Source: Candidatus Methanoperedens nitratireducens (GTDB lineage Archaea; Halobacteriota; Methanosarcinia; Methanosarcinales; Methanoperedenaceae). From it: a stretch of 57,093 bases of DNA. Under the pieces are notes generated by a model. That model had not been told where the DNA came from, ran no database searches, and was given only the letters and a program-made list of their open reading frames with translations. The stretch spans positions 1-57,093 of the forward strand of contig DYGR01000017.1 of the NCBI GenBank assembly GCA_020724545.1, written 5' to 3'. Made by a program: the position numbers and the translations under genes. Positions 21,316-54,419 of the stretch are shown in pieces. Numbering within the stretch: the first letter of the stretch is position 1; the number at the start of each line of letters is the position of its first letter.

Positions 21316-21447
21316 ATGGTCGAAAGGAGGGATTATGAAGACCTGCTGCTTGCGGCGGTGGTGCATGATGTAGAGGTGAGACATTGCAGAGTTATTCTTA
21401 GAACTATATGGGGCAAAACATTGGAGGGAACACAACGAAGACAATAA
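21316..21447 (+). pseudogene. remnant resembling the start of a Csm1-type cas10 (HD region)
   Basis: An ATG at 21316 opens MVERRDYEDLLLAAVVHDV, which matches the way Csm1-type Cas10 proteins begin: a short charged lead, a helix LLLAAVVHD that carries the HD pair, and normally GK next. Here GK is replaced by unrelated sequence and the frame ends at 21447 inside cmr1 (which starts at 21408). About 20 residues of match is short, so this is tentative. If right, an older cas10 gene was cut and the cmr operon was joined to its stump. Confidence 0.4.
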
Positions 21448-36512: not shown

Positions 36513-39500
36513 TTATTCCTGCTCAAATCCCTGACTTGTAAATTTCAGTGTTTTACCGTTCTCCATAACAATCCTTACCACTTGATCAGGAACACCAGAT
36601 GGAATATTGGCATCTATTTCCAGTGTCACTGTCACAGTTGAGCCTACAAATCCTGAAAGATGTGAAATTACCTCTTCAGCAATTTGACTTGCGTCACGAC
36701 CTACACGTGTTGGATCCAGGTTAACACTACCATAGTATCGCTTTGGTGGTTGCTTAGGTGGCGACACGGTTTTTGTTTCATCAACCTTAACCCTGTTAGT
36801 CCCTTCAATTGTTTCAGGTGGAATGGTAGTTTCTGTTCCATTTTTAGATTCAGGCATAGTTTCTGGTTTAGGCTGAACTTCTTCCTGCCTTTGGTTGGCA
36901 GCGATATCAGGTTTGACCAGTAAGCCCGGAAGAGTATCTTCTGAAAGTTTAACCGGTTGACCACAATGGAGTCCCCTATATCGACTTTTAACTTCATCAA
37001 AACTGTCGGCATAAGCGAACGATTCTTGTTCCCATGTAAGTATTCTGAGTCCGGAATTGATTGAATCTGTCAACACAGCCGGGCCAGTTAACCTATAAAG
37101 ATATGGATAACTTGCAAAATCCTCAGCAAGCTGTTTGATCTGAACATGGTTTCCTCTCCAGAGAGGGATTTTATCGAGTTCCATGCGTAGACCTGTACCT
37201 GAAAGAGCTGGTACGAGCATTTGATCATTCTTTAGTTTCTTGCTGGCTCTTGCAGCAAGTGAATCTTGACCAGATAGTCTGATTGCTTGAATTTCTACAT
37301 GCGATTTTGGATCCTTCTGAACAGGAACCAACAGCCATTGATAGGTTTCAGGAACGCGTGCATTGACAGTACTGTTAGCAGAATCTCTTTGAGCCGCTGC
37401 CTGCTTAACCTGATGTGGGGAAAGATCAAGTGTGTCTTTTTCTGCAAGTATCGATTCCCACGCAAGATATTTGCGTATGGCCTCATCCAGATCCTGAAAA
37501 CGTGTCTTGTCTGGAGCAAGGAATACCAGGGTATTTCGGTAGAGTCGTGGGCTATTTCCACGGGTTTCAAGTATCATTTTTGCCGCTTTCTCAGCAGCAT
37601 TCCCTTCTTCTTTGCTGTATGTTTGTTCTATACCCAGAACCACAAGTCTGGCATTCAGATCTTCGGGAACGTCTCCACTTGAAGTTGGCAAAATGTGCAC
37701 ACCTTTGAAATCACCCATTCGGCGCAGATCAGCTCGCAGGAGTCTATCCAGTTCATGTGCTACTTTATCAGGGTCACGCTTTAATTGTTCAGCACGATCA
37801 TCAGCAAGTTTGGTGACAGTGGGCTGGGTGGAATACCAGTAACGCGGCCCATCCTGATAGAGATAGGTAGCCGCCCCTGTCAGCCTCCTCAATGCGTCAC
37901 CAAATACAGCCGGGGATTCGCCTGGCTGTACGCATCCCAATTTCACTTGCCGATCTTCAATACCACGATTTGCCGTAGCAGTAGTAGGTGCAGAACCAAG
38001 ATAGATGGTACGTGCCACACGCCTGCATGCTGCAAATTTTCCCAGATTTGGCACATCAGAATCAATGCGTAGAGGTAGTGAATTAGGCCCATCTACGTCT
38101 TTTTCTATAATGGGAACCCAGTTATCAGAAAGATAACGCGTCAGTTCAAACTGCACACGCCGATCTTCGATAGGAATGTTGGCTGGAAGGATCAGGGGGT
38201 TCTTATCTCCCTTTTCCCAGAGGCTGTATATGACAGCAGCCATGAGGCGCAGTACGCCACGTGTGCGCTGAAACTTTACAAGCGTAGACCAGTCAGTGTA
38301 AAGACGGTCAAATATCTCTGGGTGGATCGGATATGCTGCTTTGATGCGATTTTCATATTCTGCATCACGACATTCAGGCGGAAATTCCTGCTGTTGAGCT
38401 CTATAGAGATCAACAAAAGCTCGTGCAATCACATCACGATCCTTGAACTGAGCCGGATCAGTCATGGGCTCGAATAGCCTTCGGCGTACAATCTCAAAAC
38501 CTTCCTCTGCAGTTGCAGGTCTCCAGACCGCTTCCACACGGCCTATTACATTACGAAGTCTGTCGAGTGCTTCACGTCCACGTTGACCGCCAACCTCCAG
38601 ATCGTCAGCACGGGCATGGGGTGAAGTGGCAGTGTCAGAGGCAGGTAAACTGATAACAAGCAGGCAATTGCTGGCAAGTTTGGCAGATTCTGTGAGTACC
38701 TGGGCAAAGGAGAACTGTGTTTCAAAACTGCCTCCTGGCAAATCACTCTGGTCGTGCAGCTGGCGGGCATAGGCTACCCATTCATCAATAAGTATGATAC
38801 AAGGTCCGTAATCATTGAAGAGTGCTCGTAATGCATCACCCGGACTGGTCGCTCTTTCGTCATCATTACGTACACGTTCATAAGCAACTTTTCCCCCAAG
38901 TTGCCAGGCAAGTTCGCCCCACAGGGTATTAACAACTGTTCCATCTGGTTTTGTAACTGGATTACCGGGAGATATCTTGTTTCCAACAAGCACAACTGTC
39001 TTTGCTTTTGGAAGTTTGGGGACCTGTGCTTCTATGAGCACATTTTCAATACCTACAAGTTTATTGGCATCAAATTTTCCTGAGAAAAGATGATAAAGCG
39101 CCAGCATGGAATGTGTCTTTCCACCTCCAAAGTTTGTCTGGAGCTGTACTACTGGATCACCACCAACACCCGCTATTCGCTGTATTGAACTTACCAAAAG
39201 GTGTTTCAGGCTTTCTGTGAGATATGTACGGCGGAAGAATTCAGCAGGGTTGCGATATTCATCAGATCCCTCTCCAAGATGCACCTGCCAGAGGTCAGCC
39301 GCAAATTCTGCCTGCTGGTAACGACCGCTTGCCACGTCTCTATGCGGAGTTATTATCTCTCTCCATGGCTTGAGGTTGGAGGCACTTTCAATGACAGTAC
39401 TTGAACTCTTGCGGCGTTCGTGTCTTGACTGTTCATCAAAGACCAGGTGTCTAAGTTCCATTTTCATCTTGCGGACTTCTTCTGCTTGAGGAGCAGATAC

Positions 39501-39863
39501 TGCCGTCAGCATTCTCTCGGTTGTGTCCAGTGCACGGTCGGTATCATCGCTGGAGAAGGTTTCCTGATGAGCCCATTTATTACGCACATCTCTAAGTTCA
39601 CTAACCAGAGTACGTTCAGCAAATCCAAAGGTTTTTCGGAACACCTCATTCCATGCATCCCACATGAGCTTGAGCAATGCGGCTGCATCTAATTGTTGAA
39701 TTGACCTGTCAGCAAGCAGCCAATCTTCACCAAGTATTTGAGCTGCCTGATCTAGTGCCTGATCCTGATATGTATTCTCTATCTCTCGCTGCACAAAAGG
39801 TCCAAGACCTTCTTTTAGCAATTCCAGTGCTTTTGCAACCCGCTCGTAGTTGGTCATTCCCAT
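36513..39863 (-). CDS. DUF499 ATPase with N-terminal Swt1-type HEPN domain
   Basis: The 1116-residue protein starts with a HEPN-like domain of the Swt1 kind (NYERVAKALELLKEGLGPFV; RNKWAH at 94-99 gives R-x4-H). The DUF499 P-loop ATPase core follows, with Walker A NFGGGKTH (about 244-251) and a Walker B-like CIILIDEWVAYAR. A proline- and threonine-rich linker near 960-1020 leads to a small C-terminal domain. DUF499 (COG1483) proteins pair with DUF1156 methylases in predicted phage-defence modules. The gene lies two bases after the methylase stop and is the last gene of the leftward operon. The HEPN site could give it RNase activity. Confidence 0.85.
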   Translation of the reverse strand: MGMTNYERVAKALELLKEGLGPFVQREIENTYQDQALDQAAQILGEDWLLADRSIQQLDAAALLKLMWDAWNEVFRKTFGFAERTLVSELRDVRNKWAHQETFSSDDTDRALDTTERMLTAVSAPQAEEVRKMKMELRHLVFDEQSRHERRKSSSTVIESASNLKPWREIITPHRDVASGRYQQAEFAADLWQVHLGEGSDEYRNPAEFFRRTYLTESLKHLLVSSIQRIAGVGGDPVVQLQTNFGGGKTHSMLALYHLFSGKFDANKLVGIENVLIEAQVPKLPKAKTVVLVGNKISPGNPVTKPDGTVVNTLWGELAWQLGGKVAYERVRNDDERATSPGDALRALFNDYGPCIILIDEWVAYARQLHDQSDLPGGSFETQFSFAQVLTESAKLASNCLLVISLPASDTATSPHARADDLEVGGQRGREALDRLRNVIGRVEAVWRPATAEEGFEIVRRRLFEPMTDPAQFKDRDVIARAFVDLYRAQQQEFPPECRDAEYENRIKAAYPIHPEIFDRLYTDWSTLVKFQRTRGVLRLMAAVIYSLWEKGDKNPLILPANIPIEDRRVQFELTRYLSDNWVPIIEKDVDGPNSLPLRIDSDVPNLGKFAACRRVARTIYLGSAPTTATANRGIEDRQVKLGCVQPGESPAVFGDALRRLTGAATYLYQDGPRYWYSTQPTVTKLADDRAEQLKRDPDKVAHELDRLLRADLRRMGDFKGVHILPTSSGDVPEDLNARLVVLGIEQTYSKEEGNAAEKAAKMILETRGNSPRLYRNTLVFLAPDKTRFQDLDEAIRKYLAWESILAEKDTLDLSPHQVKQAAAQRDSANSTVNARVPETYQWLLVPVQKDPKSHVEIQAIRLSGQDSLAARASKKLKNDQMLVPALSGTGLRMELDKIPLWRGNHVQIKQLAEDFASYPYLYRLTGPAVLTDSINSGLRILTWEQESFAYADSFDEVKSRYRGLHCGQPVKLSEDTLPGLLVKPDIAANQRQEEVQPKPETMPESKNGTETTIPPETIEGTNRVKVDETKTVSPPKQPPKRYYGSVNLDPTRVGRDASQIAEEVISHLSGFVGSTVTVTLEIDANIPSGVPDQVVRIVMENGKTLKFTSQGFEQE

Positions 39864-39865
39864 TG

Positions 39866-42769
39866 TTATCTCTCCTCAGAAAGTTGTGTTTGCCCTTTTG
39901 GCAGTTTTGCTTCCCATTTTGAAAGCCGCATCAGTTCAGGCCAGCTCTGTACCAGTGAATTATAAGCCAGCGCTTCACTGGCGCGTTTCTTTCGTTCACA
40001 TAGAGTATAAAGACGATAAGCAAGTTCCCTGGCTACATCAGCTTTACTTCCGAGTTTAGCTACCAGTTCAGCTGCAGCTATTTCACCGCCTGTTTCCAAC
40101 ACACGGATAAGATGATGAACCGTTTCCCAAACAGTCAATCTTGTATCTGTAGCAGGATCCCAATTTGCAGGAAGTTCTTTGGGTTTGAGCAATCTAACCT
40201 TTCCTGCTTTCGAGGCGAGAATTCCAGCCTCGACCATACCTGAAACGCTGGTGTTCTTGGCTTTGGAAAGTGTTTCTGCCACCCCATATTCGCCTGCATC
40301 GAATCCATATTGATCGAACCATGCCAGCGCCCATCGGCTATCTGCATCAAAGTCCCCTTCCTGTTCTGCCAATACTTCGTCAAGGGTCTGGTTGATGAGT
40401 GAAAGTGCTTCATGGACGGTCATAATTTTGCCTTCTGCATCAAGTACTTTTGAATAACGAGTAAAAACAGCCATTCCTGGACCAATTGCGGCTTGAGCAA
40501 GATCGACTGGAGCGATGTTCCCATGCTGGAGGTGTTTGAGTGCTTCAGGCAACTCCGTTTTAAGCTGGTTGAGGAACTCTCGCCGGGTGGTAAAGGGTGT
40601 GCTGGGTGGGCGAGGGCGGCAGACGAGAACAATACTGGATGCGAGGGCGTTGGTTCCTTGACCAACCATACGACTGTTATTTTCTGTTCTAATTGGCCAA
40701 GTGCCAACAAGTGCCAGATTTGCTTTAACCACAGCATCAAGGAATGATTCCCATCCCGTGGAAGATGTACCTTCTTTTTCAGTTTCAGATTGTTTAAAAG
40801 CGTAATAAATCGTTACAGGGAAACTAATGTGTGCTTGCTCAGCCAATCGATGCATTGCATGCGTCATACCATCCACGAAAAAAAATTCAGCAGCCTCTTT
40901 TCCACCATGGCGATGGGGTGTAGCTATAAGTTCTTCAGATTTAGGCACTGCTAACGTCCCAAAAAGTTCAGAGAAAACAGGCCGTAGCGACCGCCGCAGC
41001 CATATGTAGAAGAAATCAGACAGATCAGCATATCCAATATTATCATAATATGGTGGGTCTGTGGAAACTATCTTTGAAAACGACACATTTTGAGTACTTG
41101 CATCGGCCTGCAACGCTGTACCAGTGAAAGAAGATTGGACAGTTTCAAATGATTTCAGAATTGACTTGTAAATACCCTCAATGAATACCATCCATGCTCC
41201 AGAACTACTCCCCATTGGGTTGCCTTCAGCAAAATCCCATACCATTGGAATAGCTTGACGACCAAAAAGCTGTCTTGGACATTGAGCTATCGGTTCCCAA
41301 CGGCACAGACTATTTCCAAGGTCAGATTGCTTGTCGAGTGCAAACGCCAAATAAACTCCAACGGAATCCGCATACGCCTGTGTTCCCATTCCGCCAGCAG
41401 ATAGGTTTTTGCCATCATCACACATCCCGGTAGCGATTGCATCATGCTTTACTCGATCATGTGCTTCCAGCACTAAGTCTGATAAGGTGGTTAATGCCAC
41501 AAGCTGCCGTGGAGTGAAAAGCTGTCTCCATTTTATCATGCCATATTCTTGAATTCTAAATCCAAGTGCTTTTTGTGGTAAATTGGTGTCTGGAACATCT
41601 TTAGGTTCAGCTTGAAATGCTATGGCTTCTTGTTCATGTGAAGATGAAAGATAAACACGATTTTTGGCTCCATCTAATACAATTGCCATTAGTCGTTTTC
41701 CCATGCATCCTTTTTTTGCTTCAGTACGTAGATAAGGGAAGTCTATTGGCGTTTCAGAAAATAAACATTTGAATGCTTTTCCTTTGCCAAACTTTGTACC
41801 GTTATTTGCTGCTTCTGAATCCTTAGGTTTTCCCACTTTCACTATGAAACGATAATTATCACCTTCAATAACAGGTATCACATAAGCTTCCTTTCCTTTT
41901 ATGGTAGATAACATGTATGTGGTGGCAAGCGGCACATCAACGTGGTTATAAGCCGGATTCGGACTCTTCACTGTACGTGCCCAGAGCCAGGCAATGACAG
42001 TGAGCTTCTTGCCAACATATTGTTCGAGGTCTGTTCTTTCTTTTGCCATCTCTTCAGTAATTTCAATTTTTGGATAAAGATGTCCTATGCGTTTTTCAGC
42101 TTCATCACGCATCCATTTGCCGTAGTAACGCACATCCTCAGCCATCCCTTCTGCGCCCTTCCACTTTCTTGAATCTATGCCTTTCTGAATCCTTGATTCC
42201 GGGTTCACAGGCGGTTGACCTGCAAACTTGGGTGGAATCTCGATCATAGCCTTGTTGATGAGCACAGCCACAGGATTCAGGTCTGAAGCATAAGCTTCAA
42301 GACCAAGACGCTGGGCTTCCAGAGGCAGGGAACCGCCGCCGGCAAAGGGATCATGGAATGCAGGCAGTTTATTTGGGTTGAACAATTCATTTGCCTTTGG
42401 ATGATTCTTATTTTCTTCGCAGGTATAGCGCCAGCTCTTCCTTATTTCTTCGCGCGCCTGATCCAATACCTTCTCGTTCGTGGTGTTCTCCCACTTTACC
42501 AGTTCTTCTATCAGCCTGAACAGGCGCTGGCGTTCATTCTCCTGGGCTTCTTCTGTCGGGAAAAGTTCAGGGTGCCCTGATGGATCATCTACCATCTGAG
42601 CAAATATAACAGCCCGCGCAGCCGCTAAAGGGCGCCTTGCCCACCATAAGTGCAGCGTACTTGGATGTCCGTGGCGGATTGACTTCTCTCTTACTGAAGC
42701 CTTATTGATCGCATCCAGAGGGAGGGCGACTTCGATCAGTTTCTTTTTGTAAGTTTTAGTAGTTGTCAT
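39866..42769 (-). CDS. DUF1156-family adenine-specific DNA methyltransferase
   Basis: Starting at ATG 42769 (relatives begin here: [18 protein letters not shown]), the protein is 967 residues. The DUF1156 N-terminus includes [20 protein letters not shown], the SAM-binding motif DPFAGGG is at about 140-146, and the catalytic [19 protein letters not shown] is near 570. DPPY marks N6-adenine (or N4-cytosine) methylation. Its start overlaps the upstream sacsin-like gene by 14 bases and DUF499 follows at once. It probably marks host DNA for the island. A shrunken copy of its N-terminus lies at 48816-49097. Confidence 0.9.
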
Positions 42770-45700
42770 TTTTATAAACAATCCTGTATGTTGCTGGATA
42801 AAGAACAATCTTTCCCTCTTCACGCATGGATCGAAGATGCTTACCCGATAGTTCAATAGGTTTATCCTCTATATCAGAGAGTATAAATGCACAAGTATCA
42901 GGGGATTTATCGATCATACCCCATACATCAGCTTCAATCTTAAGAGGCTCACGCTGTAAGCAATGGTCTTTTGGCAAGTAGTAGCAAATCACTTCGCCTG
43001 CTGATGAAAGTTTCTCCCAGGGAAATATATTCTCTTTATCAGACTTGCGAATCCTGTTACCATTAGAATGGAAAAAATTATTTTCATCCTCCATATGATA
43101 ACCTTGACTCAATGCAAAACGTTCCATAATGCTTGGTTTTGTCGGTTTGGGTGGAGAAGGCTTTTTGATTATTTCAACCTCTTTTTCTTGAGCTTCATCC
43201 GGCTCGTCGCCAGTTGTCTTAGTTTCATCCACATGGCCCTCTTCCTTTTCAGGCAGTGTCACCTGAGTGTCACTGCCCTCGTCGAGTACTGCTGGCAAGA
43301 TTACATTATCTTCTGTTACATCATCACCAATATCTTGTGGCTTAACTTCTTCTGGCGATTGAAGAGTAAAGTTTTCTTCAAGGTACTCAGTCACATCCTG
43401 GGGGGTGCGTCCAAAACAATAATTCAAAGCAGCAGTAATATCTGGCTGATTGAACATTTTGCCAAGATTATCAGGCACCATACGGGCGAGTTTTGCATTA
43501 GGAATATCATTAAAATACAGGATTCTGTCTAACCATATAACATCAACATTTGTGGGCGTCCCCGCTGGAATTCCATCAATGTATGGAATTGTTTCAAGAC
43601 CAGGAGTTTTCTGCCATAATGTTTCTGCTAGATCTGCCGCTAATGACCTGATTCTTAAAGTATTGTCCTCATCAGGAAGTACAATACGGCAAATATCTTC
43701 ACCAAAGCGATTGAGCCACATTCGTTTTTCAGGATGGCCTATAAATGATGGATCTTGGTGAAAACGGTTTTCTATTTTGTTTGCAAGAACAGAGAAATCA
43801 GAAAATGGTAATTCTTGTGTTAACTCTCCCGTAAGATGACGAAAATCGGCAGTCTTCTGCTTAACCCCTTCATGCAAGTGACTCCACGGTATCAGTGACT
43901 GCATTGTAATGCTATATTCAATATTCTCAACTGGTATCCATTCACCAACAAGATTTAACCAGTGGCCACATTCCTTCCATATTCTTACTGGATGGCGTGG
44001 AAGAATGCTACGAACTCTGCGTAAATCATCCTGTGACAACATTTGTCTTGTAGGAAGCTCTTTCAACCACTGGATTACAAGGTCTGCTGTAGGTCGTTCA
44101 TTTACTCCAAGCTTTCCCCAAATAGTAAGATGCTTTACCGAAGACCGTATAATTTCTGCCCTAGGAACATCTTCTTCATCTGCAGATAAAAATACCTCAG
44201 ATAATCTTCTCCAATTACCACTTTCTGTCAGGATCATCTTCTCATCGTTAAAAACCTGTTTGATTTTTACAAAATCATCGGTTGAGCAACTATATAGCAT
44301 TTGGTCGAGCCGCTGATACCATTTATCAACCTCATGCAGGGGTGGATTATCCGCTTTAGAAAGTGCACGAAGGCGATCAAGCAGTCGATCAGGTCCGGTA
44401 GGGGTATCACATACTCCAAGTAGGAAAAGAAGATCACGAGTTGATTCATTATCATATCGAAAATCTATGAAGGGTTCTACATCCATAAGTGATTCAGTTT
44501 CTGGTGTACGTCTGAATATTTCTCTTGGTTTCCGATAGGATCCACGAGTATCCGGAAGGCATGGTAGCTCGCGTAATTTCAATATCCATGCTGGTAATAG
44601 TGGATTGTAAGTAATTCCTCTTCTATTACCAGTAGTAGCGATTTGCATAGCTCTTGCACCTTTAGCTTTCGACCAAAATGATGCCGATTGGATCAATATA
44701 TGCTCAACTAAATGTCCCCAGAAGTTATCGTCGTTTTTAGCTAATGATTGCCAGTGCTTCCACAGAGTGTCTTCGAAATCCCAGTCTTCAATTATAAAAG
44801 AATTTGTCACATAGGGGAATGAAAGTTCTCCATCAAACCCATGAACCTTGACTTCATGTTGAATTCGTTGACGCCCCCAGATATGAACCTCTTTTTGCAC
44901 CAAAGGTACAAACGTATTGATACCAGCACGTCCAGAATTTATCCATTCAATCCAATCATCCCGGGTGCAAGACTTAAAATCGTTTAAATAATCAGAGTGC
45001 AATAAATGATTACAAGACCAATCATTGGGTAATATTTGCTCTAAAGTGCCATCATCATCAAATAGAATAATGTCTGCAACGGAACGAAGGTATGTATCTT
45101 TGGTTACATACTTGAAAGAAGCACTAATTGTAGACCCAAGTTTAGCAACTATCTGTGTTAGTTGAACACAATCAGATATATCCACATTATCTTGTCCAAA
45201 AAATTTATCAGCCACTTGTTCTATTACTCTGTTGGTTCCACTTGGACTATCAAGACCGATTGCTTTTAATACGTCATCAACAGACTCTAATTTCTTCTTG
45301 ACCAATTTATCATCGCGTTTTTCAGCGTTTTGCTTTAGATCTGACGTGAAAGTAAACCATTCTTGGTTTGAAACAAGAAGGTATTTTAAGAGAAAATCCC
45401 AATCATCGTCTGATTGAAGTATTTTCTTTTCTCCAAGTCTAACAACTTCTTTTGCAGCATATAATACATTCTTCCCTTGGACAGGAATAATGTGTATATC
45501 ATCGTGTTTGAGATGTCTGTGACCTGTGACTTCTGATTCAATGTATATCCATAAATTTAGTAATTGATCCCATTTTTCAGGTTTTGGCATATGCTTGTTT
45601 CTTAGAGTGTTCAATAATTGTGTTTTTGTAATCTCTTCGACTACTTTGCGTTTAAGAAGCTTACTTTTATTAATCTCTGATATGTGATGAGATAAGGCAG

Positions 45701-46934
45701 GTCTGTTCAAGTCATCCAGCAATGCAGCAGCCTGTTTAGCAGGCCAAACTTCACTAATCTCATCAGGAATGATTATGCACTTGGCTGGCTTAAGGTCTCC
45801 TTCATCAGTCAATAAATAATTTTGATTTTCAATTATGGAATTAAAATTTTCTGCAACAATAGCGGTGCAGATCCCTTCTAAAGAATGATCATAAGATTTT
45901 ACTTCCGGAAGCATACCATATGCTATAGAGCGATTAACTAATCCAATGGTATCTTTTTTTAGCCATTGTAGAAAAACTAAAGCAGCAAGCCTACCGATTC
46001 TTCCTAATAACCAGCGATTTGTTGGTGATGCCCCTGGATCTTTTATTTTCAAGCGTGCTGGATCTTGAATAAATGGTGCGTTGCATGCAAAAGGAAGAGA
46101 TGTTTTAACACCGGTTGGAAGTACAACAAAAAGACGTCCGTTTGCACCTACAACAATCTCAACCTGGCATGGAGGATATTCAGCATCGTCATCCGAAGGG
46201 AGCATGCGTTCTTCTCTTATTTCCGCCAGAGCATCAATAGGAAATTCTTCGAATTGGGACTTTACAATCAAATATGATTTTTCGTTTTTGTTGACAAGTC
46301 CTACCAATTCAGTATCTTCGACAGGACCATGTCCAATAATACACCATTTGACCTCTTCATCCTGAATATTTATATGACGAATGTTTTTGAAAAAAAGAAG
46401 AGATACGGGGCTTTCAAGCCATTCCTGAAGATTCTTTTCAACATCAACCTGCCGATGTTCATCCTTAATTTTAACTCGTACTTCAGTAAGATTATCTTTT
46501 CTAAGAGGAACATCACACCATATTGGCTCTGTAAATCTATGTTTATCAAATGCAACAGAAAGAGAAGGTGTATAAAGCTCTACCAGATCTCCAAGACTAA
46601 ATGTGCTCTTAAATCCGATTCCACGAAAGCCAATCGTATGCAGAGCACGTTTGTTCGAATATCCGAACCTGCAAAGTGATGCAAAATGTTCCTCAGTAAA
46701 GTCCTCTCCATTGTGTCTGAAAATAAAAACACCATTTTCTATTTGAACGGATGCGAAATCAGCCCCCGCATCGTCGGCATTCTGAAGCAACTCTGATAAT
46801 ACATGTCGGGGGCTCTGAACCTGTTTGAAAAGCTGATGCCATGGCCCTGCAAGATCAGGATCATGTTCAAGCTGATCCCATCGTTTTGAAGCACCCTCTC
46901 TAATTCGTTCAAAGTATTCGGGAGGGATGCTCAT
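42756..46934 (-). CDS. sacsin-like protein with HSP90-type ATPase domain
   Basis: ATG 46934 is chosen because it overlaps the preceding stop as ATGA. The product is 1392 residues with an N-terminal GHKL ATPase: [19 protein letters not shown] (N-box, about 45-63) and [15 protein letters not shown] (G-box). A very long middle follows that I cannot assign, then an acidic linker around 1240-1310 and a C-terminal domain of about 80 residues. Similar giant ATPases occur in bacterial and archaeal defence islands. It lies between the helicase-tail copy and the methylase and is in their operon. Its role in the system is unknown. Confidence 0.8.
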
Positions 46935-47206
46935 CTTGGAACCGCCGCACATGCCAGAAACTCAGAATAAATATAATTCACACTTGTAACGCAAAAGTCA
47001 GTTTCACGCTGGAAAGGTTGACACCGATAGTGAACACGATGAGTATCAATGCAATCCCTTGTACGTTCCAAAACAGCACCAGGTAACATATCCAATACTC
47101 TCGCAGCGTTTTTTTCTGCTTCTCGCATGCCATCGGAGGGATACTTTCCTTCTGGGTCAATATGCATGCGTCCTTCATTCATGCTGTATTCTCTTTTCAT
47201 ATACAC
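46931..47206 (-). pseudogene. second copy of the helicase C-terminal tail, fused to unrelated sequence
   Basis: The last 35 residues (HRVHYRCQPFQRETDFCVTSVNY and on to AAVPR) match the end of the large helicase (HRVHYLRQPFQREPDFGVTS...AQVPR), and the DNA is similar over about 110 bases (46931-47042 against 50838-50948). The preceding 55 residues (MNEGRMHIDPEGKYPSDGMR onward) are not helicase-like. The stop overlaps the sacsin-like start as ATGA. It is a rearrangement scar that may still serve to couple translation. Confidence 0.7.
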
Positions 47207-47236
47207 AACCTGAGACCATACGCTTTATTATATTTT

Positions 47237-47297
47237 CCTTTAACTTTACGATTAGTGGGTTTTACTTAACGATTACTTAACGATTAGACCTGCACTT
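47237..47297. repeat. 61-base repeat at the 3' end of the DUF4062 gene (other copy 50766-50826)
   Basis: The stretch with CCTTTAACTTTACGATT and two ACGATTACTT(A/G)ACGATT words occurs at 47237-47297 and 50766-50826 with about six differences. In the first it is the end and 3' flank of the complete DUF4062 gene. In the second it follows the helicase and marks where another copy of that gene used to end. Confidence 0.8.
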
Positions 47298-48819
47298 TAA
47301 GGCGGTAACGGGTGGAACGGCCAGCTCCCAACTTTTCCGCCAGTCCCATTTCGATCAGTTTTCTAAAGTCACTAGCTATAACAGGACCGGTGACATCAAA
47401 TTCCTCTTCGCATTGCCGGGTGGTAAGTTCCTTGCCTTCGACCAGCCATTGCATCATCTTCCGCTGCCTTTCGTTCAATTGAGATTCCACTGCCGGAGTT
47501 ACCCGCACCAACTGCTCTGGAACACGAAGGCGCTCGATGTTATCACCTGGTCCCAGGAAAGTTACCTGGAAATATCCTGTATCAGTACCGATAAGAGGCA
47601 CATCCAGTCCATGGTTGAGCATCTGTTCGCGCATACGCCGAAAGCCGCTGCCACGCTCCTCTATGCGGTGGAAATAAGAGAGACACTGAGCCAGTACCGG
47701 ATTACGTGAACATGGCCTGTATGTTCCCTTGCGCAGGTTGACAAGTGTAATAGGTGTAGGTGGAAGACCGGGGCTTGAGATTATTACCTTGTTAGAGAAG
47801 ACTTCAAGCATGATCTTTCGCCCGGCGTCTTCGTATTGCCGGTGGGCCACAGCATTGACAAGAGCTTCCCTCATAGCCTCAACAGGATATTCATCAAGAC
47901 GCACACGGTTAAGTCCCACAACTTTCATGGGATGCCTGGTATTCCGATCTATAAAAGCAATGGCACGCTCAATAACCACAGGCATAGGTCCACGAATATC
48001 CTCATGATCCTGTGGTTCCCCGTCAGGCTCAGAGCTGCGATAAGCATCCGCAAGTACACGACACTGAGGGAACACTGCAGAAGGGTCTTTAGCCAGCAAC
48101 ACCACGCCAGCCGCTGTTGCGTAGTATTCCCTCGATTCCGATTCACACCAAACAAGGCCACGCAACATAACGCCAGTCAATACATCTTCAGAAGACAAAT
48201 CATCGATATTCCTGCCTTCGGCTGCACCCACAAGCCTGCGAGCCATGTCATGGTTCAGGTCATCCCAGCGGATTCGCATCAAAGGTTGAGATTCAAACTT
48301 AGAAGTAGCCTCGATGGTCTGATCTGCTATCAGGTTCTCATCACTTGTAGGAACAATGCCGAACTTTTCCTGAAGTAGCTTTACTAATGCTGCTCTTACT
48401 TCTTTCTGAAGTTCTATGATATTGCCAAAACGTTTATACTTAAAATCATCAGCTTCCAATTCCTTAAGCAAAACATCTGTACCGCTCTCCCTTTTTACAT
48501 TACGTTCACCCTTTATAAAAGCCAGAATAGGCAATCCGCATTGCTTTGCATGCCTGTATTCAGTGTGAGTTATCGATAGTTCACCCGCAGGAGTCCCATA
48601 CTGCACGCCCACGATTAATAGATACACCTGGCAATTGTCAAGTGACCTCAAACAGCCCTCTAAAACCTTATCAGCAGATGCTGGTTCATATTCATAAAGT
48701 ATGGGCGTGCAATGTGCCGAAAGGAACGGATCGGTATTAATCAGATTTTGAATGATGAGTCGCTCATCTTCAAGTTCCTTCTGAACTGAACTAACAAATA
48801 CTTTGAAAAATGAGGTCAC
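47284..48819 (-). CDS. DUF4062 / GHKL-ATPase / winged-helix protein
   Basis: The 511-residue protein has an N-terminal DUF4062 domain (FKVFVSSVQKELEDERLII, YLLIVGVQYGTP) of a TIR-like fold. A central part with EALVNAVAHRQYED (about 318-331) and RIEERGSGFRRMREQM follows, as in AlbA/AAA_4-linked ATP-binding proteins, and then a C-terminal winged helix (TTRQCEEEFDVTGPVIASDF). DUF4062 proteins are frequent in defence islands as sensors or effectors. The start is GTG, overlapping the stop of the shrunken methylase frame (GTGA). A leftover of a second copy is just downstream of the helicase. Confidence 0.78.
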   Translation of the reverse strand: MTSFFKVFVSSVQKELEDERLIIQNLINTDPFLSAHCTPILYEYEPASADKVLEGCLRSLDNCQVYLLIVGVQYGTPAGELSITHTEYRHAKQCGLPILAFIKGERNVKRESGTDVLLKELEADDFKYKRFGNIIELQKEVRAALVKLLQEKFGIVPTSDENLIADQTIEATSKFESQPLMRIRWDDLNHDMARRLVGAAEGRNIDDLSSEDVLTGVMLRGLVWCESESREYYATAAGVVLLAKDPSAVFPQCRVLADAYRSSEPDGEPQDHEDIRGPMPVVIERAIAFIDRNTRHPMKVVGLNRVRLDEYPVEAMREALVNAVAHRQYEDAGRKIMLEVFSNKVIISSPGLPPTPITLVNLRKGTYRPCSRNPVLAQCLSYFHRIEERGSGFRRMREQMLNHGLDVPLIGTDTGYFQVTFLGPGDNIERLRVPEQLVRVTPAVESQLNERQRKMMQWLVEGKELTTRQCEEEFDVTGPVIASDFRKLIEMGLAEKLGAGRSTRYRLKVQV

Positions 48820-49097
48820 TGAGGCACTTCCGCAGGATTCATGTCTGAAGCATAGTTGAATAACTCACTTGCCTGTAGATGGTTCTTATTTTCTTCGCAC
48901 ATCTGAGAAAGAATCACGGCGCAGGCAGCCGCTAATCGACGATTTGCCCGCCATAAGTACAGCGTAATTAGACTGTGGAGAATTGACTTCTCAATTGTTG
49001 AAATCTCATTTATTGCATCCAGAGGGAGGGCGACTTCGATAAGTTTCTTTTTCATCAATAAACTACTCCGTAAGACCTCATAGTCTTCCTCTTTCAC
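48816..49097 (-). pseudogene. shrunken DUF1156 methylase N-terminus, still in frame (93 aa)
   Basis: The frame contains [39 protein letters not shown]...ASELFN and YASDMNPAEV, each matching the full DUF1156 methylase in order but with two large in-frame gaps (about 60 and 40 residues missing) and many changes. The SAM motif and DPPY are gone, so it cannot methylate. It ends in a GTGA overlap with the DUF4062 gene. It is a decayed copy that has kept an open frame, perhaps because it couples translation. Its upstream part (49040-49097) has no match. Confidence 0.75.
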
Positions 49098-49252
49098 TTT
49101 ACCATTTAACGGTATTTATATTATTCCGTTTGATGAGACCGTTTCAATAAGCTATAAATTATGAAAAGTTTATAATCATTATAAACAATATATACATTGT
49201 TTCACAATCATAATATTATATCTTCAGCGTATGAATCAGGACAAAACAATAT

Positions 49253-49825
49253 ATGACAACCGTTGCTATTCCCGCCTGGAACGTTATGGGGCTACTGCCG
49301 CCCATTGATTCCAATATACCCACAAGCCCGGATCGCTCTCCGTATCGTGTGTCACTCAAGGATATCGTGATGCGCTTTGCCACCACACCGGAGCGCCGTT
49401 CTGTGCTGACTGGTTTTCTGAAATATCGGCAAGCTTTACATCAGTCAGGTTTTACCTCTGGATTTCAGTGGTTGAATGGCAGTTTTGCTGAAGATGTCGA
49501 AATGATCGAAAAACGCCCCCCGCAAGATATGGATGTGGTGACATTTCTGCACACACCCGAACATTTTATATTATCAGACGTGAACATCGGGATTTTTAAA
49601 AATGATTATGCAAAATCCAGCTTTTGTGTCGATGCGTATATTGTTGAACTGGATGAACTATCAAGCGATCAAATAGTAATCCATTCAGCGTACTGGTACA
49701 GCATGTGGTCTCATCGACGCAATCAGGCGTGGAAAGGATTTCTGCAAATTGAGCTTGATCCTGCCGAAGATACAGAAGCAATAGCCTGGCTTGCACAATC
49801 TGAAACCACAGGAGCTAAATTATGA
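49253..49825 (+). CDS. DUF6932-like nucleotidyltransferase
   Basis: The 190-residue protein has a nucleotidyltransferase-type motif WLNGSFAEDVE (residues about 74-84) then PPQDMDVVTF (about 90-99), giving GS...DxD as in the DUF6932/AbiEii-like groups, with a helical lead-in and a C-terminal helix. It is followed by a partner gene with an ATGA overlap. The pair points against the flanking defence operon and separates helicase from DUF4062. It is likely a toxin-antitoxin or abortive-infection module inserted here. Confidence 0.65.
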   Translation: MTTVAIPAWNVMGLLPPIDSNIPTSPDRSPYRVSLKDIVMRFATTPERRSVLTGFLKYRQALHQSGFTSGFQWLNGSFAEDVEMIEKRPPQDMDVVTFLHTPEHFILSDVNIGIFKNDYAKSSFCVDAYIVELDELSSDQIVIHSAYWYSMWSHRRNQAWKGFLQIELDPAEDTEAIAWLAQSETTGAKL

Positions 49826-50745
49826 ACCAGCAAGATCGACTGCATCTGCTGGCAGAACAGAAGTTTTTGCGGGGACAATTGGAAACATTACCCAGATCTG
49901 CGAAATTGACCCGAATGAGCGTCGAGTCACGCATGCAAACTGTTGATGAGCAATTAAAACGGGTTCCACCTGACGAACAAGCACCTGCTCGAGTTCAACT
50001 CACATTCAATGGTCGTCCGGTAATTGGTAGTCACGGTATTTTTGCTGACTTTGGTATGAAGGCAGTAAACAGTTTTGTCGAAGCAGTTTCTGCGATGGCA
50101 GCCTCAATACAGGCTCCACTTGCATCAACTGGACCTATTCCTAATCGTGAGCAACATCAGCTTTTAATAACCAATACGGCATTAGGTTCATTTGGTTTCG
50201 AGCTGGAAGAATATCTAACTCAAAAATTAATATCAGAAGAATATAGTTCTGTTGCTCAGGCATTGTCAAAAACTCGGGATTTGTTACAAGGAATACTCGG
50301 AGGCACAGATGAGGAGTTTGCAGACTTTGTATCCGAAACTGATCTAAGAGCCCTTGAAAAAATAAGGGGATTTCTGCAAATATTAGCGGACAATGAAGCA
50401 GTTTGCACACTTCAATATCGGGAACGCAGCGTAAGATTTACCGATGTTGGGCAGATCAGAAAAAGTCTTGAACGTTTGAGTCAGGATAATCTAAGCGAAA
50501 GTGAAGAGATTTTGGACGGTGAATTTCATGGGCTGCTACCCAAAAGCCGAACATTCGAATTCGGTCTGGCAGAAAACGATGGCAAGATCATTACAGGTAA
50601 AGTAGGCATAAATATCAGGGATGCCGAATCACTGAATCAACATTTATACGAACCTGTGAAAGCTAAAATGATGGTGACTCGTATAGGTGGCATCAGGCCG
50701 CGCTATGTGTTGTTAGAATTGCCGCAATGGGAAGACACAAAATAG
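49822..50745 (+). CDS. hypothetical partner protein of the DUF6932-like gene (307 aa)
   Basis: The 307-residue protein has a coiled-coil start (DRLHLLAEQKFLRGQLETLP, residues 5-24), a central helical part (QLLITNTALGSFGFELEE) and a C-terminal beta-rich end (TGKVGINIRDAE, PRYVLLELPQW). No catalytic motif or membrane helix is seen and I do not recognise the family. Coupled translation with the nucleotidyltransferase (ATGA) suggests it is its target or antitoxin. The gene ends 21 bases before the copied 3' flank of the lost DUF4062 gene. Confidence 0.6.
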   Translation: MNQQDRLHLLAEQKFLRGQLETLPRSAKLTRMSVESRMQTVDEQLKRVPPDEQAPARVQLTFNGRPVIGSHGIFADFGMKAVNSFVEAVSAMAASIQAPLASTGPIPNREQHQLLITNTALGSFGFELEEYLTQKLISEEYSSVAQALSKTRDLLQGILGGTDEEFADFVSETDLRALEKIRGFLQILADNEAVCTLQYRERSVRFTDVGQIRKSLERLSQDNLSESEEILDGEFHGLLPKSRTFEFGLAENDGKIITGKVGINIRDAESLNQHLYEPVKAKMMVTRIGGIRPRYVLLELPQWEDTK

Positions 50746-50804
50746 ACCGGGAAAAGTTCCGAGTTCCTTTAACTTTACGATTTGTGGGTTTTCCTTGACG
50801 ATTA

Positions 50805-50840
50805 CTTGACGATTTGACCATACTTTGAACAGTGAGGTCA
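50805..50840 (-). pseudogene. leftover of a deleted second DUF4062 gene
   Basis: Right after the helicase, read on the minus strand, ATGACCTCACTGTTCAAAGT overlaps the helicase stop (ATGA) and matches the first codons of the DUF4062 gene (GTGACCTCATTTTTCAAAGT). The next bases instead match that gene's last codons and 3' flank. The join falls at AAAGT, present at both ends, so about 1.5 kb was lost between five-base repeats. Confidence 0.75.
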
Positions 50841-53800
50841 TCGTGGCACCTGCGCTCTTGCCAATAATTCTGCGAAATTGTAATTCACACTTGTAACGCC
50901 AAAATCAGGTTCACGCTGGAAAGGTTGACGCAGATAGTGAACGCGATGATTATCATCGGGCATGAATTCCACAATTGCGAGGATGAAATCCTCTGGCTTG
51001 TTGAGGGAATAGAGTATCTCATTCTTTGTAACGGTGAGAATTAATGCCCCCGAAATGCGCCCTTTTACTTCAATAAAACGCAATTTTCCTGTACCGGGAA
51101 CACGACTTTCAATATCATAACCCACCTTTTCCATTTCACGGTCAATAGGCTCAAAACCAAGGTTACGTTCGATATCCATTATAATTTCACGAGCACGTGC
51201 AGCGGATGCCTGAGTATCTACGGGCTGTGAAGGTTCTGGCAGGTCCTTACCTGTCATTCTGGAAATCATGCCCATTGGCACAACAAGCAGACCCCCCATT
51301 ATCACGGGTGGCAGAGCTGATATCTGCCCTTCCAATTTCAGTTCCTCCATACGCTTCTGAAGACGCCTTTGTAGCTCATCAGCTTTATTTCTAGCTCCAC
51401 CAGAATTCTGCTTGGCATTAACCTTGCCTGCCTGTTCCTGGAGTTTCAATTCTTCAGCACGATGGTCCCAATAGTTGATCTCTTTGGTCAGTCGTTCTTT
51501 CACAGCTGCTTCAGTCTTCTTGATAAGTTCCATTTTACGTGTACGGACCTCTGATAAATGTTCAGGTACAACATTGGAAATGGCATATTCCTGTACCCTT
51601 TGTTCCATTTCACGGTTAATCCATGCAAATTCGGGTCTTCCAAATAGTTCTTCCGCACCTGGCTCATCATCCTTGAGAGGTCTGTAGTCTAGATAAGGCG
51701 CATAATGTATATGGCGGGTGTTGCCAGCGGAATCCAGTTCAACATATAGCATACGTTTGGAAATTACACGACGTTCACCTGTGCGTGTACGGCTGGCATC
51801 CTGAATAGCGTGTTCCAGATAAAATAACACGCGCGGTTCAATACCATGATCACTTTCGTCCACCAGCACAGTTCCACGACGGAGTATATCCCTATTTTTT
51901 TCAAGAATAAGGTCAATGGTTGCTGAAAGTAACGGGTGTCCCGGACAAACGAAAGCAGCAAGTGGCTGTCCCTGAGGAGCTATCAAAGGTTTCTCGAAGG
52001 CAATGCGTTCATATCTTTGAAGTACAGGTTCGCCAAGACCAATTAAACGATCACGATTGCGAATTTGTGCAGGTACGTTCTTGATTTCATAACGCCGTGG
52101 TTCGCGTTGTTTTAGTGAACCACCAAGATGATTGAAGGCTTCCTGGAAAAAAGACTCTATATAATGTGGCTGTAGCCTTCTTGCTTCCGCCCTTTCCATA
52201 TCTTCACGGATACGATATACACGGCTTACATCCATTGAATCATGAGCTAAAGCATGTTCTTCCAGTAAGTCTTGAAGTTTCTTACGGTCAAATGCATTTG
52301 CTACTACCTGTGTAAGCCTTGCACGGACCTCCGGCTGTTCTGCATAACGGATTGCTTCTATCAAGAGTTGCTTTAGTGGTTTACCATCAAACTGCAGTTT
52401 ACCAAGTACATCAAACACCTGACCGCCAAGTGCTTCACGTGCCTGTTCAAGTTTATCAAGCAGAGTGCGATATACGTCACCTTCTCTTGTTTCTTCAGCA
52501 ACAAGATTCCAGAGATAACAGATTTCAGTTTGGCCTATACGGTGAATACGTCCAAAACGCTGCTCGATCCGGTTTGGATTCCAAGGTAGATCATAATTTA
52601 CCATTAGATGAGCACGTTGCAAATTAATACCTTCACCCGCAGCATCAGTGGCAACTAAGACTTTTACTTTAGGATCATGTTTGAATGACTCCTGAATTTT
52701 AAGTCTTTCCTCACGCCCTTTACTACCGTGAATACTGACAACGTATTCCTGATTGCCCAGAAGTGTACTTATACGATTTTCAAGATAAGCCAACGTAGAG
52801 CGGTGTTCTGTAAAAATAACGAGTTTCTCATTTGGGGAGGACGCAGGTTTTTGAATATCACGTGCACCATAAGATGAACGTTCTTCTGCTATTCGGTCAG
52901 CGATCACAGCCGGTGAAAATATTTCCTCAAGTAAACTTGCAAGTCCACGCCATTTTGTATCTTCACCGCTAAGACGAACGGATTCTGCAAGTGCTCCAAG
53001 ACGTTTTAAAGTTTCTATTTCTGCTTTTAACTCATCAATTGTACGTGCTGCGGTGGCTTGATCAAGAATTTCTTCCTCGGCTTCTGCAACTTCATTTTCA
53101 GGTGCATCCTCCAGATCATCAATATCATCGTCATCCAGTATTCCAATGGTAGGTATCTGCTCAACCTGACCTCCACGTTGAAGGAGTTTTAGTTCATTCA
53201 ATCGACTCTCCAAACGTTTTCTGCGGTTTATCAGTGATTGTGATATTGCTTCGGGTGATGAAGCAAGGCGACGTTGCAGAATAGTAAGTGCAAAACCAAC
53301 CGTTCCTGTTCTTTTTCCATTCTGAAGTGCTTCTGCCCGGTTAAATTCTTCACGTACATAATCAGTAACTTCTTTGTACAGTTGTGCTTCAGCGTTTGAA
53401 AGTTTATATGGAACTGTATAGGCGATACGTTCAGGGAAAAGAGGAGTAGCATCAAATTTGAACAAATTCTCCTTGACCATCCGACGCATCAGGTCAGATA
53501 CATCTGCAGTATGCGCACCATCACGAAAACGACCTTCAAAACGGTCACCATCCAGCAAAGCCATGAAAAGCTGAAAATCTTCTTCTTTTCCATTATGTGG
53601 CGTTGCTGTCATCAACAGGAAATTGCGAGTCAGGGTAGAGAGAAGTTGACCGAGTTTATAACGTTTTGTATATTTGATTTCTCCTCCAAAAAAAGTAGCG
53701 GACATCTTGTGGGCTTCATCACATACAATGAGATCCCACCCACATTCCTGTGCTTTGAGCTTTTCCTGTACATTTTCATTACGCGAGAGTTTATCCAGCC

Positions 53801-54419
53801 TAGCTATGGCAAGATCAGTTTCTGAAAACCAGTTTCCTGTGCGTGCTGCCTCCAGTTTATCATTAGTAAGTATTTCAAAAGGCAATTGAAAACGCCTATA
53901 AAGTTCATCTTGCCATTGTTCAGCCAAACTACCGGGACAAACTACAAGACAACGTTGCAGATCACCGCGTGCAATTAACTCCTTCATCAGTAACCCTGCC
54001 ATAATTGTCTTACCAGCTCCTGGATCATCCGCCAGCAAAAATCGAAGGGGTTGGCGTGGCAACATTGTATCATAGACAGCCGTTATTTGGTGGGGGAGCG
54101 GATCGACTAAAGATGTATGCACAGCAAGAACAGGGTCAAATAAATGAGCCAGACGAATTCTGTGAGCCTCTGAAACTAATCGGAATAGAGCGCCATCTCC
54201 ATCAAAACTCCATGGTCTACCTTGTTCCACAACTTTAATTCGTGATTCATCGTCACGGTAAAGGAGTTCTCTGCCAGGACGGCCGTCATGAGTATTGTAA
54301 GTGAGCTCAAGAGCATCTGATCCAAACCATTTAACATTTAAAACAGTTACAAGACTATCGGAAATGATACCGCTTACCGATGCATTAGGTTTAAGATCCT
54401 CAAGCTTACTCATGATCAT
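50838..54419 (-). CDS. SNF2-type helicase with C-terminal DUF3883
   Basis: The 1193-residue protein has the SF2/SNF2 motifs: I DDPGAGKT (131-138), II VCDEAHK (about 231), III MTATPHNG, and V-VI ATDAAGEGINLQRAHLMVNY and RIEQRFGRIHRIGQ. A long coiled middle follows, then DUF3883 near 1080-1150 with KVGYDIESRVPG and RFIEVKGR, a D...ExK layout like PD-(D/E)XK nucleases. It is the first gene of the leftward island and probably remodels or translocates on DNA, with DUF3883 as a possible cutter. Its stop overlaps the remnant DUF4062 start. Confidence 0.88.
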   Translation of the reverse strand: MIMSKLEDLKPNASVSGIISDSLVTVLNVKWFGSDALELTYNTHDGRPGRELLYRDDESRIKVVEQGRPWSFDGDGALFRLVSEAHRIRLAHLFDPVLAVHTSLVDPLPHQITAVYDTMLPRQPLRFLLADDPGAGKTIMAGLLMKELIARGDLQRCLVVCPGSLAEQWQDELYRRFQLPFEILTNDKLEAARTGNWFSETDLAIARLDKLSRNENVQEKLKAQECGWDLIVCDEAHKMSATFFGGEIKYTKRYKLGQLLSTLTRNFLLMTATPHNGKEEDFQLFMALLDGDRFEGRFRDGAHTADVSDLMRRMVKENLFKFDATPLFPERIAYTVPYKLSNAEAQLYKEVTDYVREEFNRAEALQNGKRTGTVGFALTILQRRLASSPEAISQSLINRRKRLESRLNELKLLQRGGQVEQIPTIGILDDDDIDDLEDAPENEVAEAEEEILDQATAARTIDELKAEIETLKRLGALAESVRLSGEDTKWRGLASLLEEIFSPAVIADRIAEERSSYGARDIQKPASSPNEKLVIFTEHRSTLAYLENRISTLLGNQEYVVSIHGSKGREERLKIQESFKHDPKVKVLVATDAAGEGINLQRAHLMVNYDLPWNPNRIEQRFGRIHRIGQTEICYLWNLVAEETREGDVYRTLLDKLEQAREALGGQVFDVLGKLQFDGKPLKQLLIEAIRYAEQPEVRARLTQVVANAFDRKKLQDLLEEHALAHDSMDVSRVYRIREDMERAEARRLQPHYIESFFQEAFNHLGGSLKQREPRRYEIKNVPAQIRNRDRLIGLGEPVLQRYERIAFEKPLIAPQGQPLAAFVCPGHPLLSATIDLILEKNRDILRRGTVLVDESDHGIEPRVLFYLEHAIQDASRTRTGERRVISKRMLYVELDSAGNTRHIHYAPYLDYRPLKDDEPGAEELFGRPEFAWINREMEQRVQEYAISNVVPEHLSEVRTRKMELIKKTEAAVKERLTKEINYWDHRAEELKLQEQAGKVNAKQNSGGARNKADELQRRLQKRMEELKLEGQISALPPVIMGGLLVVPMGMISRMTGKDLPEPSQPVDTQASAARAREIIMDIERNLGFEPIDREMEKVGYDIESRVPGTGKLRFIEVKGRISGALILTVTKNEILYSLNKPEDFILAIVEFMPDDNHRVHYLRQPFQREPDFGVTSVNYNFAELLARAQVPR

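Follow-up and report, generated by a model that had tools for sequence, protein, structure and literature searches.

A probable effector slot, junction scars and a putative self-recognized repeat array in a Hma restriction-like operon of Candidatus Methanoperedens nitratireducens

The DNA considered here, hereafter the window, is a stretch of 57,093 nucleotides from Candidatus Methanoperedens nitratireducens (GenBank assembly GCA_020724545.1, contig DYGR01000017.1), and it is contig 45 of a 2.92 Mb genome in 88 contigs with 5.44% contamination. Positions 36,513 to 54,419 hold a defence island, and we deal with its core genes hmaA, hmaB and hmaC, with the genes lodged between hmaA and hmaB, and with two kinds of small element found among them, namely short copies of core gene ends (“scars”) and 43-bp arrays of phased direct repeats. 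Profiles from Pfam, PADLOC and NCBIfam were run against the island's nine open reading frames (ORFs), and the features are collected in Table 1. An earlier reading of the sequence alone, the original prediction, had described five large genes in one coupled leftward run. All five lie where it placed them and carry the domains it named, however the run is broken by two plus-strand genes between hmaA and the rest, and the two small leftward scar ORFs and both arrays had been overlooked.

Table 1. Genes, scars and repeat arrays of the island (positions in the window)
Feature	Position	Strand	Evidence
hmaA: SNF2-family helicase with C-terminal NOV_C/DUF3883 (PD-(D/E)XK-type)	50838..54419	-	PADLOC HmaA 1662.8 bits, residues 3-1192; Pfam SNF2, Helicase_C, NOV_C (7e-18)
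R1, second array with R2 geometry, directly past hmaA	50772..50814 (43 bp)	-	
Putative deletion scar: ~22 bp from the start of a DUF4062 gene, that gene's last bases and its R array, joined to the hmaA 3′ end	50764..50855	-	50820-50855 vs 48798-48833 81%; 50764-50819 vs 47235-47290 91%
307-aa protein, 4-bp overlap with DUF6932 gene	49822..50745	+	no Pfam family at E <= 0.01
DUF6932 protein, opposite orientation to operon; defence-candidate family PDC-M63A	49253..49825	+	Pfam 4.3e-30; PADLOC 4.1e-11
hmaB-5′ scar ORF, 93 aa	48816..49097	-	48900-49052 vs 42593-42748 79%; 48855-48899 vs 42377-42421 87%; 48824-48854 vs 42262-42292 87%; PADLOC HmaB 9e-17
DUF4062 (TIR-like)-HATPase_c_4-winged-helix protein, slot resident	47284..48819, GTG start	-	DUF4062 1.6e-19; HATPase_c_4 1.3e-21; KpSwz TIR/DUF4062 match 1.8e-5
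R2, phased direct-repeat array, AATCGTTAAGT-AATCGTTAAGT-10 bp-AATCGTAAAGT; first bases within DUF4062 stop codon	47243..47285 (43 bp)	-	
hmaA-3′ scar ORF, 91 aa	46931..47206	-	46931-47048 vs 50838-50955: 81% DNA, 71% aa
TmtA/sacsin-like GHKL-ATPase giant protein, slot resident	42756..46934, probable ATG 46934 (ORF to 46952)	-	PADLOC TmtA 175.8 bits; NCBIfam P_loop_sacsin 73.1 bits (cut-off 50); same-slot relatives
hmaB: DUF1156 adenine-methylase	39866..42769, likely ATG 42769 (ORF to 42856)	-	PADLOC HmaB 1541.2 bits; 69-74% identity to four same-order proteins
hmaC: HEPN (Swt1-like) fused to DUF499 AAA+ ATPase	36513..39863	-	PADLOC HmaC 1172.5 bits; HEPN_Swt1 9.7e-37; DUF499 1.8e-30

The core trio is the already known Hma system, also named Type-1 BREX-Related. 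Its proteins, an SNF2 helicase with a C-terminal PD-(D/E)XK domain, a DUF1156 N6-methylase and a DUF499 ATPase, are covered nearly end to end by the PADLOC models (HmaC from residue 163, past the HEPN domain), at 1663, 1541 and 1172 bits, and the restriction-like nature first proposed for them holds. Direct reading of the translations finds intact motifs, GYDI...FIEVKG in HmaA, DPPYYDN in HmaB and RNKWAH in the HEPN domain of HmaC. The last is an Rx4H form of the Rx4-6H motif whose meaning for HEPN is given in PMC3710099. The name Hma goes back to Payne et al. (2021), who gave 1,638 instances in 26 phyla (PMC8565338). The 2013 HEPN paper had already noted the operon, with DUF3883 as restriction endonuclease (PMC3710099), and Rakesh and Krishnan (2026) present the trio as Type-1 BREX-Related, with a HEPN-DUF499 fusion, a helicase-terminal nuclease, embedded nuclease effectors and the helicase DUF3883 domain as primary effector (PMC12839542).

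Since the trio matches Hma and these descriptions, the core of the finding is already known, and the PADLOC scan together with the published accounts led us to abandon the undescribed five-component system of the original prediction, the remaining genes appearing interchangeable. Its statement that no dedicated nuclease is present is true of stand-alone genes, but the C-terminus of the helicase is the DUF3883/NOV_C domain with the roles just cited. The available main text of PMC12839542, supplements aside, makes no mention of sacsin, DUF4062, HATPase, HSP90 or GHKL. DISARM was rightly set aside from the beginning: the HmaA model (1663 bits) is far ahead of the best DrmD model (390 bits) in the PADLOC scan, and with regard to DrmA/DUF1998, DrmB and a drm methylase, among the matches listed (25 of 59) only the HmaA helicase shows similarity, to DrmD/DrmA, and the other eight ORFs none. 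The three genes are not contiguous as in the definition of Hma, 8.07 kb of other genes and scars lying between hmaA and hmaB. We did not treat contiguity as defining, because wide gaps are common here in relatives, as counted below. Matches to the HmaB model (E <= 0.001) occur in 38 of the 185 genomes of the window's order and exceed 1,500 bits in only five (the window's own, G171, G080, G140 and G151); close HmaB relatives are titled Euryarchaeota and Methanococcoides, and on plasmids the hmaB N-end was found in 64 records at 67 places.

The spacing of the core genes was compared in the best 80 of 496 confirmed relatives, drawn from species genomes, among which close relatives are over-represented (one genome appears twice, as L047 and L048). 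Gaps were counted at loci where both ends were found by rule, which leaves 60 of the 80 for hmaA-hmaB and 71 for hmaB-hmaC; in L106 and L119 hmaA follows hmaC, and L087 and L108 have an upstream hmaA match whose end failed the rule. A gap of at least 500 bp separates hmaA from hmaB in 48 of 60 loci (median over all 60, 1,792 bp) and hmaB from hmaC in 29 of 71 (median 193 bp), the hmaA-hmaB gap being shorter than this in the remaining 12 of the 60. Among 20 cargo representatives scanned, those from the hmaA-hmaB gap include Schlafen-HATPase, AAA_21 with RloB, GmrSD, YhcG-type nuclease and DUF4143-AAA proteins, while the SIR2 and kinase-FHA representatives come from hmaB-hmaC gaps. Effector genes in the slot are mostly co-oriented with the operon, and a possible 4-bp NTGA overlap links the hmaA stop to the next ORF of at least 100 aa in 15 of 49 slots, the window included, and also in 4 of the 12 loci with the short gap. 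The window itself has no such overlap after hmaA because the inverted gene pair intervenes. That accessory effectors reside within BREX-type loci is an already known idea.

Comparison of the window with itself located copies of its core genes inside this junction. The region 48,824-49,052 copies the hmaB 5′ region (79-87% DNA identity) minus two in-frame stretches of 57 and 28 codons, 46,931-47,048 copies the hmaA 3′ end (81%), 47,235-47,290 copies the stretch behind hmaA (91%), and 48,798-48,833 copies the hmaA stop region (81%). The hmaB-5′ scar ORF is fused in frame to hmaA-like last codons and its stop overlaps the GTG of the DUF4062 gene (GTGA); the stop of the hmaA-3′ scar ORF, with its last 38 codons hmaA-like and its first 53 unexplained, overlaps the tmtA ATG (ATGA). 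R1 is read as left by an earlier DUF4062 copy that would since have been deleted.

We then took the 120-aa gene segments of each locus and compared them with its own gaps of at least 500 bp (48 hmaA-hmaB gaps plus the window, and 29 hmaB-hmaC gaps) and with 10 upstream regions. Scars of junction-proximal ends appeared in 5 of the 80 relatives besides the window (L057 and L082 with two each, L070, L093, L099). All junction-end matches were on the plus strand, with the hmaB N-end in 3 and the hmaA C-end in 2 of 49 hmaA-hmaB gaps (window included), the hmaC N-end in 1 of 29 hmaB-hmaC gaps and the hmaB N-end in 1 of 10 upstream regions, and for six segments taken from the interior or far end of hmaA and hmaB there was no match in 46-49 hmaA-hmaB gaps. 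A weak further match of the hmaB N-end lies in L074 (8e-5). In L057 and L099 an hmaB-5′ copy is followed directly by an hmaA-3′ copy, the L057 join between AAARA and KAPQ falling in a stretch common to hmaA and hmaB, and in L130 the stop of an hmaB-5′ ORF overlaps the DUF4062 ATG. Genome searches added hmaB-5′ scars with a full hmaB or hmaB-like gene downstream (L125, L126, L130, L175). From these sequences we infer that the scars record a stacking of effectors by recombination of hmaB 5′ with hmaA 3′ ends.

Several points weigh against this. Scars are infrequent (the 5 of 80), several decay like neutral DNA (in the window, 79% at the DNA against 63% at the amino acid level), and weak matches were also given by control segments in L108 (C_mid) and L111 (A_mid2). 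Tandem duplication and deletion could also have left the scars as neutral debris, without any mechanism or selection shaping the slot; this would fit both their rarity and the neutral-looking decay in the window, L093 and the first L057 scar, yet they stem from junction ends only, as set against the internal controls, and hybrid ORFs whose stop overlaps the next effector start have stayed open in the window, the second L057 scar and L130. In L082 a possible further case lies 24 nt ahead of the conserved start of the DUF4062 gene, and the slot is filled in most relatives; we regard neutral debris as possible, if doubtful. A function of the scars as peptides was rejected, amino acid identity being well below DNA identity in 3 of 5 scars (window, L093, first of L057).

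Some observations on scars stand apart. An hmaC 5′ copy (90% DNA) occupies L070:18677-18832 between hmaB and hmaC, and the second junction thus has stacking scars too. L135:4196-6766 looks like a bare cassette made of an hmaA 3′ end, a Schlafen/HATPase-like gene, a ParA-like gene and an hmaB 5′ end, the hmaB N-end having no match elsewhere in the same genome, and at L139:3003-3380 the first ~48 hmaB codons run in frame into an hmaC C-terminus. Isolated DUF1156 5′ fragments (L125-L139, L170-L177), in a sampling that favoured short ORFs, often end at codons ~33-62, near a 14-residue motif, with longer ones also present; they occur in divergent DUF1156 families and without a full hmaB nearby as well.

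The repeat arrays were noticed first as AATCGT boxes at fixed spacing while the scars were read. The exact pattern AATCGT-N5-AATCGT-N15-AATCGT has 8 sites in 7 of 11 genomes searched and 0 in a reversed control, each sharing its contig with hmaB or an hmaB fragment; as the seven genomes had been chosen for a known site, this search shows only the absence of further sites in them. Beyond this single sequence, 16 distinct full-length genes for DUF4062-HATPase proteins with a winged helix-turn-helix (wHTH) were examined, and 12 of them have three direct repeats at offsets 0/11/32 bp at their 3′ end; these are the 12 closest (window, L057, L082, L093=L225, L096, L103, L130=L224, L139, L226, L227, L228, L229). 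The gene of L178, aligned from residue 81 on and thus outside the 16, has an array too. When a profile of the DUF4062-HATPase-wHTH protein was run against 385 genomes, all six full-length homologs (at least 489 bits) had the array at the gene 3′ end; of the many weaker matches, 30 loci were covered. Arrays start -8 to +22 nt from the stop codon in 10 of the 12, and at -58 in L227 and about -67 in L130, where the reading frame extends into the array. The units differ by locus, for instance AATCGTTAAGT in the window, AATCATCCGAT in L096 and AATCTATCACC in L082, with identity at unit positions 5-10 of 0.93 within arrays and 0.41 between them. A sequence-blind scan for three like 10-mers on the plus strand of 161 loci gave 13 matches at offsets (11,32), whereas 125 other offset pairs averaged 0.15 and reached at most 4. 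The stop regions of 33 other HATPase-type genes held one (11,32) array.

Three of these 33 genes showed (11,22) arrays instead, at the 3′ end in L090 and L234 and 150 nt downstream in L045; the four direct repeats with an 11-bp period that overlap the stop codon of the L090 and L234 Schlafen/HATPase-type genes look akin to the DUF4062 array. Further phased geometries, (12,36) for example, were rejected since their matches lie away from the genes. The exact pattern also occurs in 11 stretches of viral contigs; these were discarded too, the only hma or cargo relative in them at 1e-5 being one Schlafen-type match of 21.9% identity (L215). In the searches made of the open-access PMC literature (subscription papers and supplements are outside this scope), no paper came up on an array of the 0/11/32 type behind DUF4062-HATPase genes or on scars at the hmaA/hmaB junction.

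What ties array to protein is covariation. In the 12 genes (left out were L131, without an array, L178, with its N-terminus unaligned, and L230, L232 and L233), unit identity at positions 5-10 correlates with wHTH identity (Spearman rho 0.49; Mantel p 0.0015, with 0.0010 in a repeat run) and not with that of the HATPase or the DUF4062 domain (rho 0.01 each). The partial correlation of unit and wHTH given the HATPase is 0.53 (p 0.0015), the correlation is 0.47 over the 62 pairs below 80% identity (residues 1-425), and the 30 bp beyond the array show none with the wHTH (0.12, p 0.17). By eye, a helix segment DTAxRDL pairs with CCGA (L057, L096, L103, L226, L228), (Q/L)TVYRDL with ATCAC (L082, L139) and P-x-x-A-x-DF with (T/A)AAG (window, L130, L227), L093 and L229 being separate. 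The array is read as the putative cognate operator or tether of the gene's own winged helix, and together they make a directly testable candidate protein-DNA code, covarying in 12 genes from loci titled Actinomycetota, Bacteroidetes and Acidobacteriota besides the window.

That said, part of the evidence points the other way. The discovery loci are among the 161 scanned, and the geometry had been noticed in them before counting; four more distant genes have no array (L131, 41% identity, and L230, L232 and L233, 30-32%); and arrays also lie away from DUF4062 genes, two each in L049 (which has no such gene), in L057 ahead of the gene and in L120 behind a Schlafen-type gene, besides second arrays in L130 and L226. 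Such arrays may be relics, as R1 of the window is taken to be, or may serve other proteins as operators. The 10-bp spacer correlates with the wHTH as well (rho 0.34, p 0.011), so that some linkage is present, and linkage alone could couple an adjacent wHTH and array; it does not, however, account for the presence of like units at a fixed spacing.

Another possibility is that the arrays are an operator of Hma itself, at the hmaB promoter. In L049 and L082 an array does precede hmaB by 40-90 bp, the former locus having no DUF4062 gene, and yet L227-L229 carry arrays at DUF4062 3′ ends with no hmaB match on the contig, the exact pattern is absent from the hma-bearing G171, G080, G140 and G151 (no DUF4062 gene in the 19-20 kb covered), and the unit sequence tracks the wHTH of the DUF4062 protein; an Hma operator is hence unlikely. 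As an observation apart, L049:5964-6094 holds two 0/11/32 arrays of different units before hmaB, and the slot there has a DUF4143-AAA gene.

We return to the slot and its two large residents in the window. TmtA/sacsin-like genes occupy the hmaA-hmaB gap in 7 of 60 loci (L047, L048, L073, L083, L094, L105, L115) and full-length DUF4062-HATPase-wHTH genes in 4 (L082, L093, L096, L103); no relative among the 60 has both, as the window does. Co-occurrence with the trio, which the original prediction had named as its own test, is thus seen for each, in loci titled several phyla, as alternatives and never together, and to judge from gene content they look like interchangeable slot residents. One integrated system of five to seven proteins, with TmtA and the DUF4062-HATPase protein as obligate subunits, was the view taken earlier. 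It would agree with the shared strand and the overlapping or close starts and stops from the DUF4062 gene through hmaC, but given these counts, the 12 loci with hmaA and hmaB close together, and the DUF4062-HATPase genes of L227-L229 without hmaB on the contig, we consider it very unlikely. The least credible idea is a site-specific recombinase or transposon that builds the stacks by targeting hmaB codons ~33-60, where numerous hmaB-5′ fragments do end, as these end points vary by tens of bases, the sampling favoured short ORFs, no recombinase family was found among the 20 cargo representatives, and integration at such a site was rejected. Jointly, the explanation we find probable is that a Hma restriction-like system keeps a slot for interchangeable accessory effectors at its hmaA/hmaB junction, that effectors are stacked there by recombination, and that the DUF4062 wHTH acts on its own array. 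The finding would then show where and how a widespread restriction-like system gains backup effectors, with the scars recording the order of events.

A mechanism may be proposed along these lines, the functions being predicted from the protein families. HmaB would methylate self DNA, HmaC would scan and assemble, with its HEPN RNase as a last resort, and HmaA would unwind and cut unmodified DNA via its DUF3883 domain. Recombination between an hmaB 5′ end and an hmaA 3′ end would stack new effectors and leave short scar ORFs behind. In the window there may once have been at least two DUF4062 copies, one of which was deleted down to its ends and array, and one TmtA, so that the probable order after hmaA is DUF4062 relic and array, opposite-strand pair, hmaB-5′/hmaA scar, DUF4062 gene, hmaA-3′ scar and tmtA. 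The DUF4062 wHTH could bind the three phased repeats behind its own gene as an autoregulator or a DNA-tethered guard, and, with about one and two helical turns from repeat to repeat, three protomers would come to lie on the same side of the DNA. DUF4062 proteins have been described as TIR-like NADases guarding E. coli from phage (PMC13174449); phage activity might free or activate the protein here, whose TIR-like domain would deplete NAD+ and abort infection if Hma restriction fails. A point against this step is that the Glu of KpSwz taken as catalytic (by an inferred numbering) aligns to His85 of the window protein, with an invariant Glu87 two residues on, which makes its NADase activity uncertain.

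A bolder version, which we offer as speculative and rather improbable, sees the DUF4062-GHKL-wHTH effectors as DNA-tethered immune guards, each on its own 0/11/32 address at the gene end, with tether loss in infection (by host DNA breakdown, promoter take-over or DNA mimics) freeing the NADase and the junction serving as a cassette slot of self-addressed modules. Several such modules could be stacked without cross-talk, because recognition helix and address would evolve as a matched pair. If the array does tether or control the effector, it would help to explain how toxic NAD-depleting proteins are silenced in stacked defence operons.

Elsewhere in the window, an imperfect inverted repeat (49,171-49,215) lies in the divergent gap between the DUF6932 gene and the hmaB-5′ scar, and a Type III-B CRISPR effector cluster (Cmr1, Cas10b, Cmr3, Csx20, Csx1, Cmr4, Cmr6) lies near the Hma island at 21,408-29,286 on the plus strand. 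An FGE-sulfatase-type protein of at least 564 aa (55,401-57,092, plus strand) continues past the contig end. A MetOD1 methanogen output domain is also encoded and, with the titles of the close HmaB relatives, points to a probable methanogenic archaeon as host.

Among known systems, Hma/Type-1 BREX-Related shares with the window all three core proteins, the HEPN-DUF499 fusion, the helicase-nuclease and the A-B-C order, and the window differs in its stacked slot genes and scars. With Tiamat (TmtA) the giant protein has in common the N-terminal sacsin/GHKL ATPase region and a partial match along its length (best 175.8 bits in two stretches, the best 46-415; another model covers 53-926), whereas its gene sits in a Hma operon and the PADLOC matches are partial. 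Swarozyc (KpSwz) has the DUF4062 domain and an HTH/winged auxiliary domain, through which it binds the phage portal protein (PMC13174449); the window protein differs in its intervening GHKL ATPase, its 3′ repeat array and the uncertain placement of its catalytic Glu, and the phmmer match to KpSwz is confined to residues 5-105, the rest being HATPase_c_4 and wHTH. The Schlafen-minimal histidine kinase-wHTH effectors of BREX and BREX-related loci (PMC12839542) share the HATPase_c_4 tail region and the same slot (L045, L065, L090), with an AlbA_2 head in place of DUF4062. Finally, the RptR island (PMC12255303) resembles the window in having a second defence system, DarTG2, nested in a restriction-modification operon and offers a precedent for a regulator that binds three direct repeats; RptR itself, a separate small protein, represses at a promoter, whereas in the window the repeats follow the gene of the wHTH-bearing effector.

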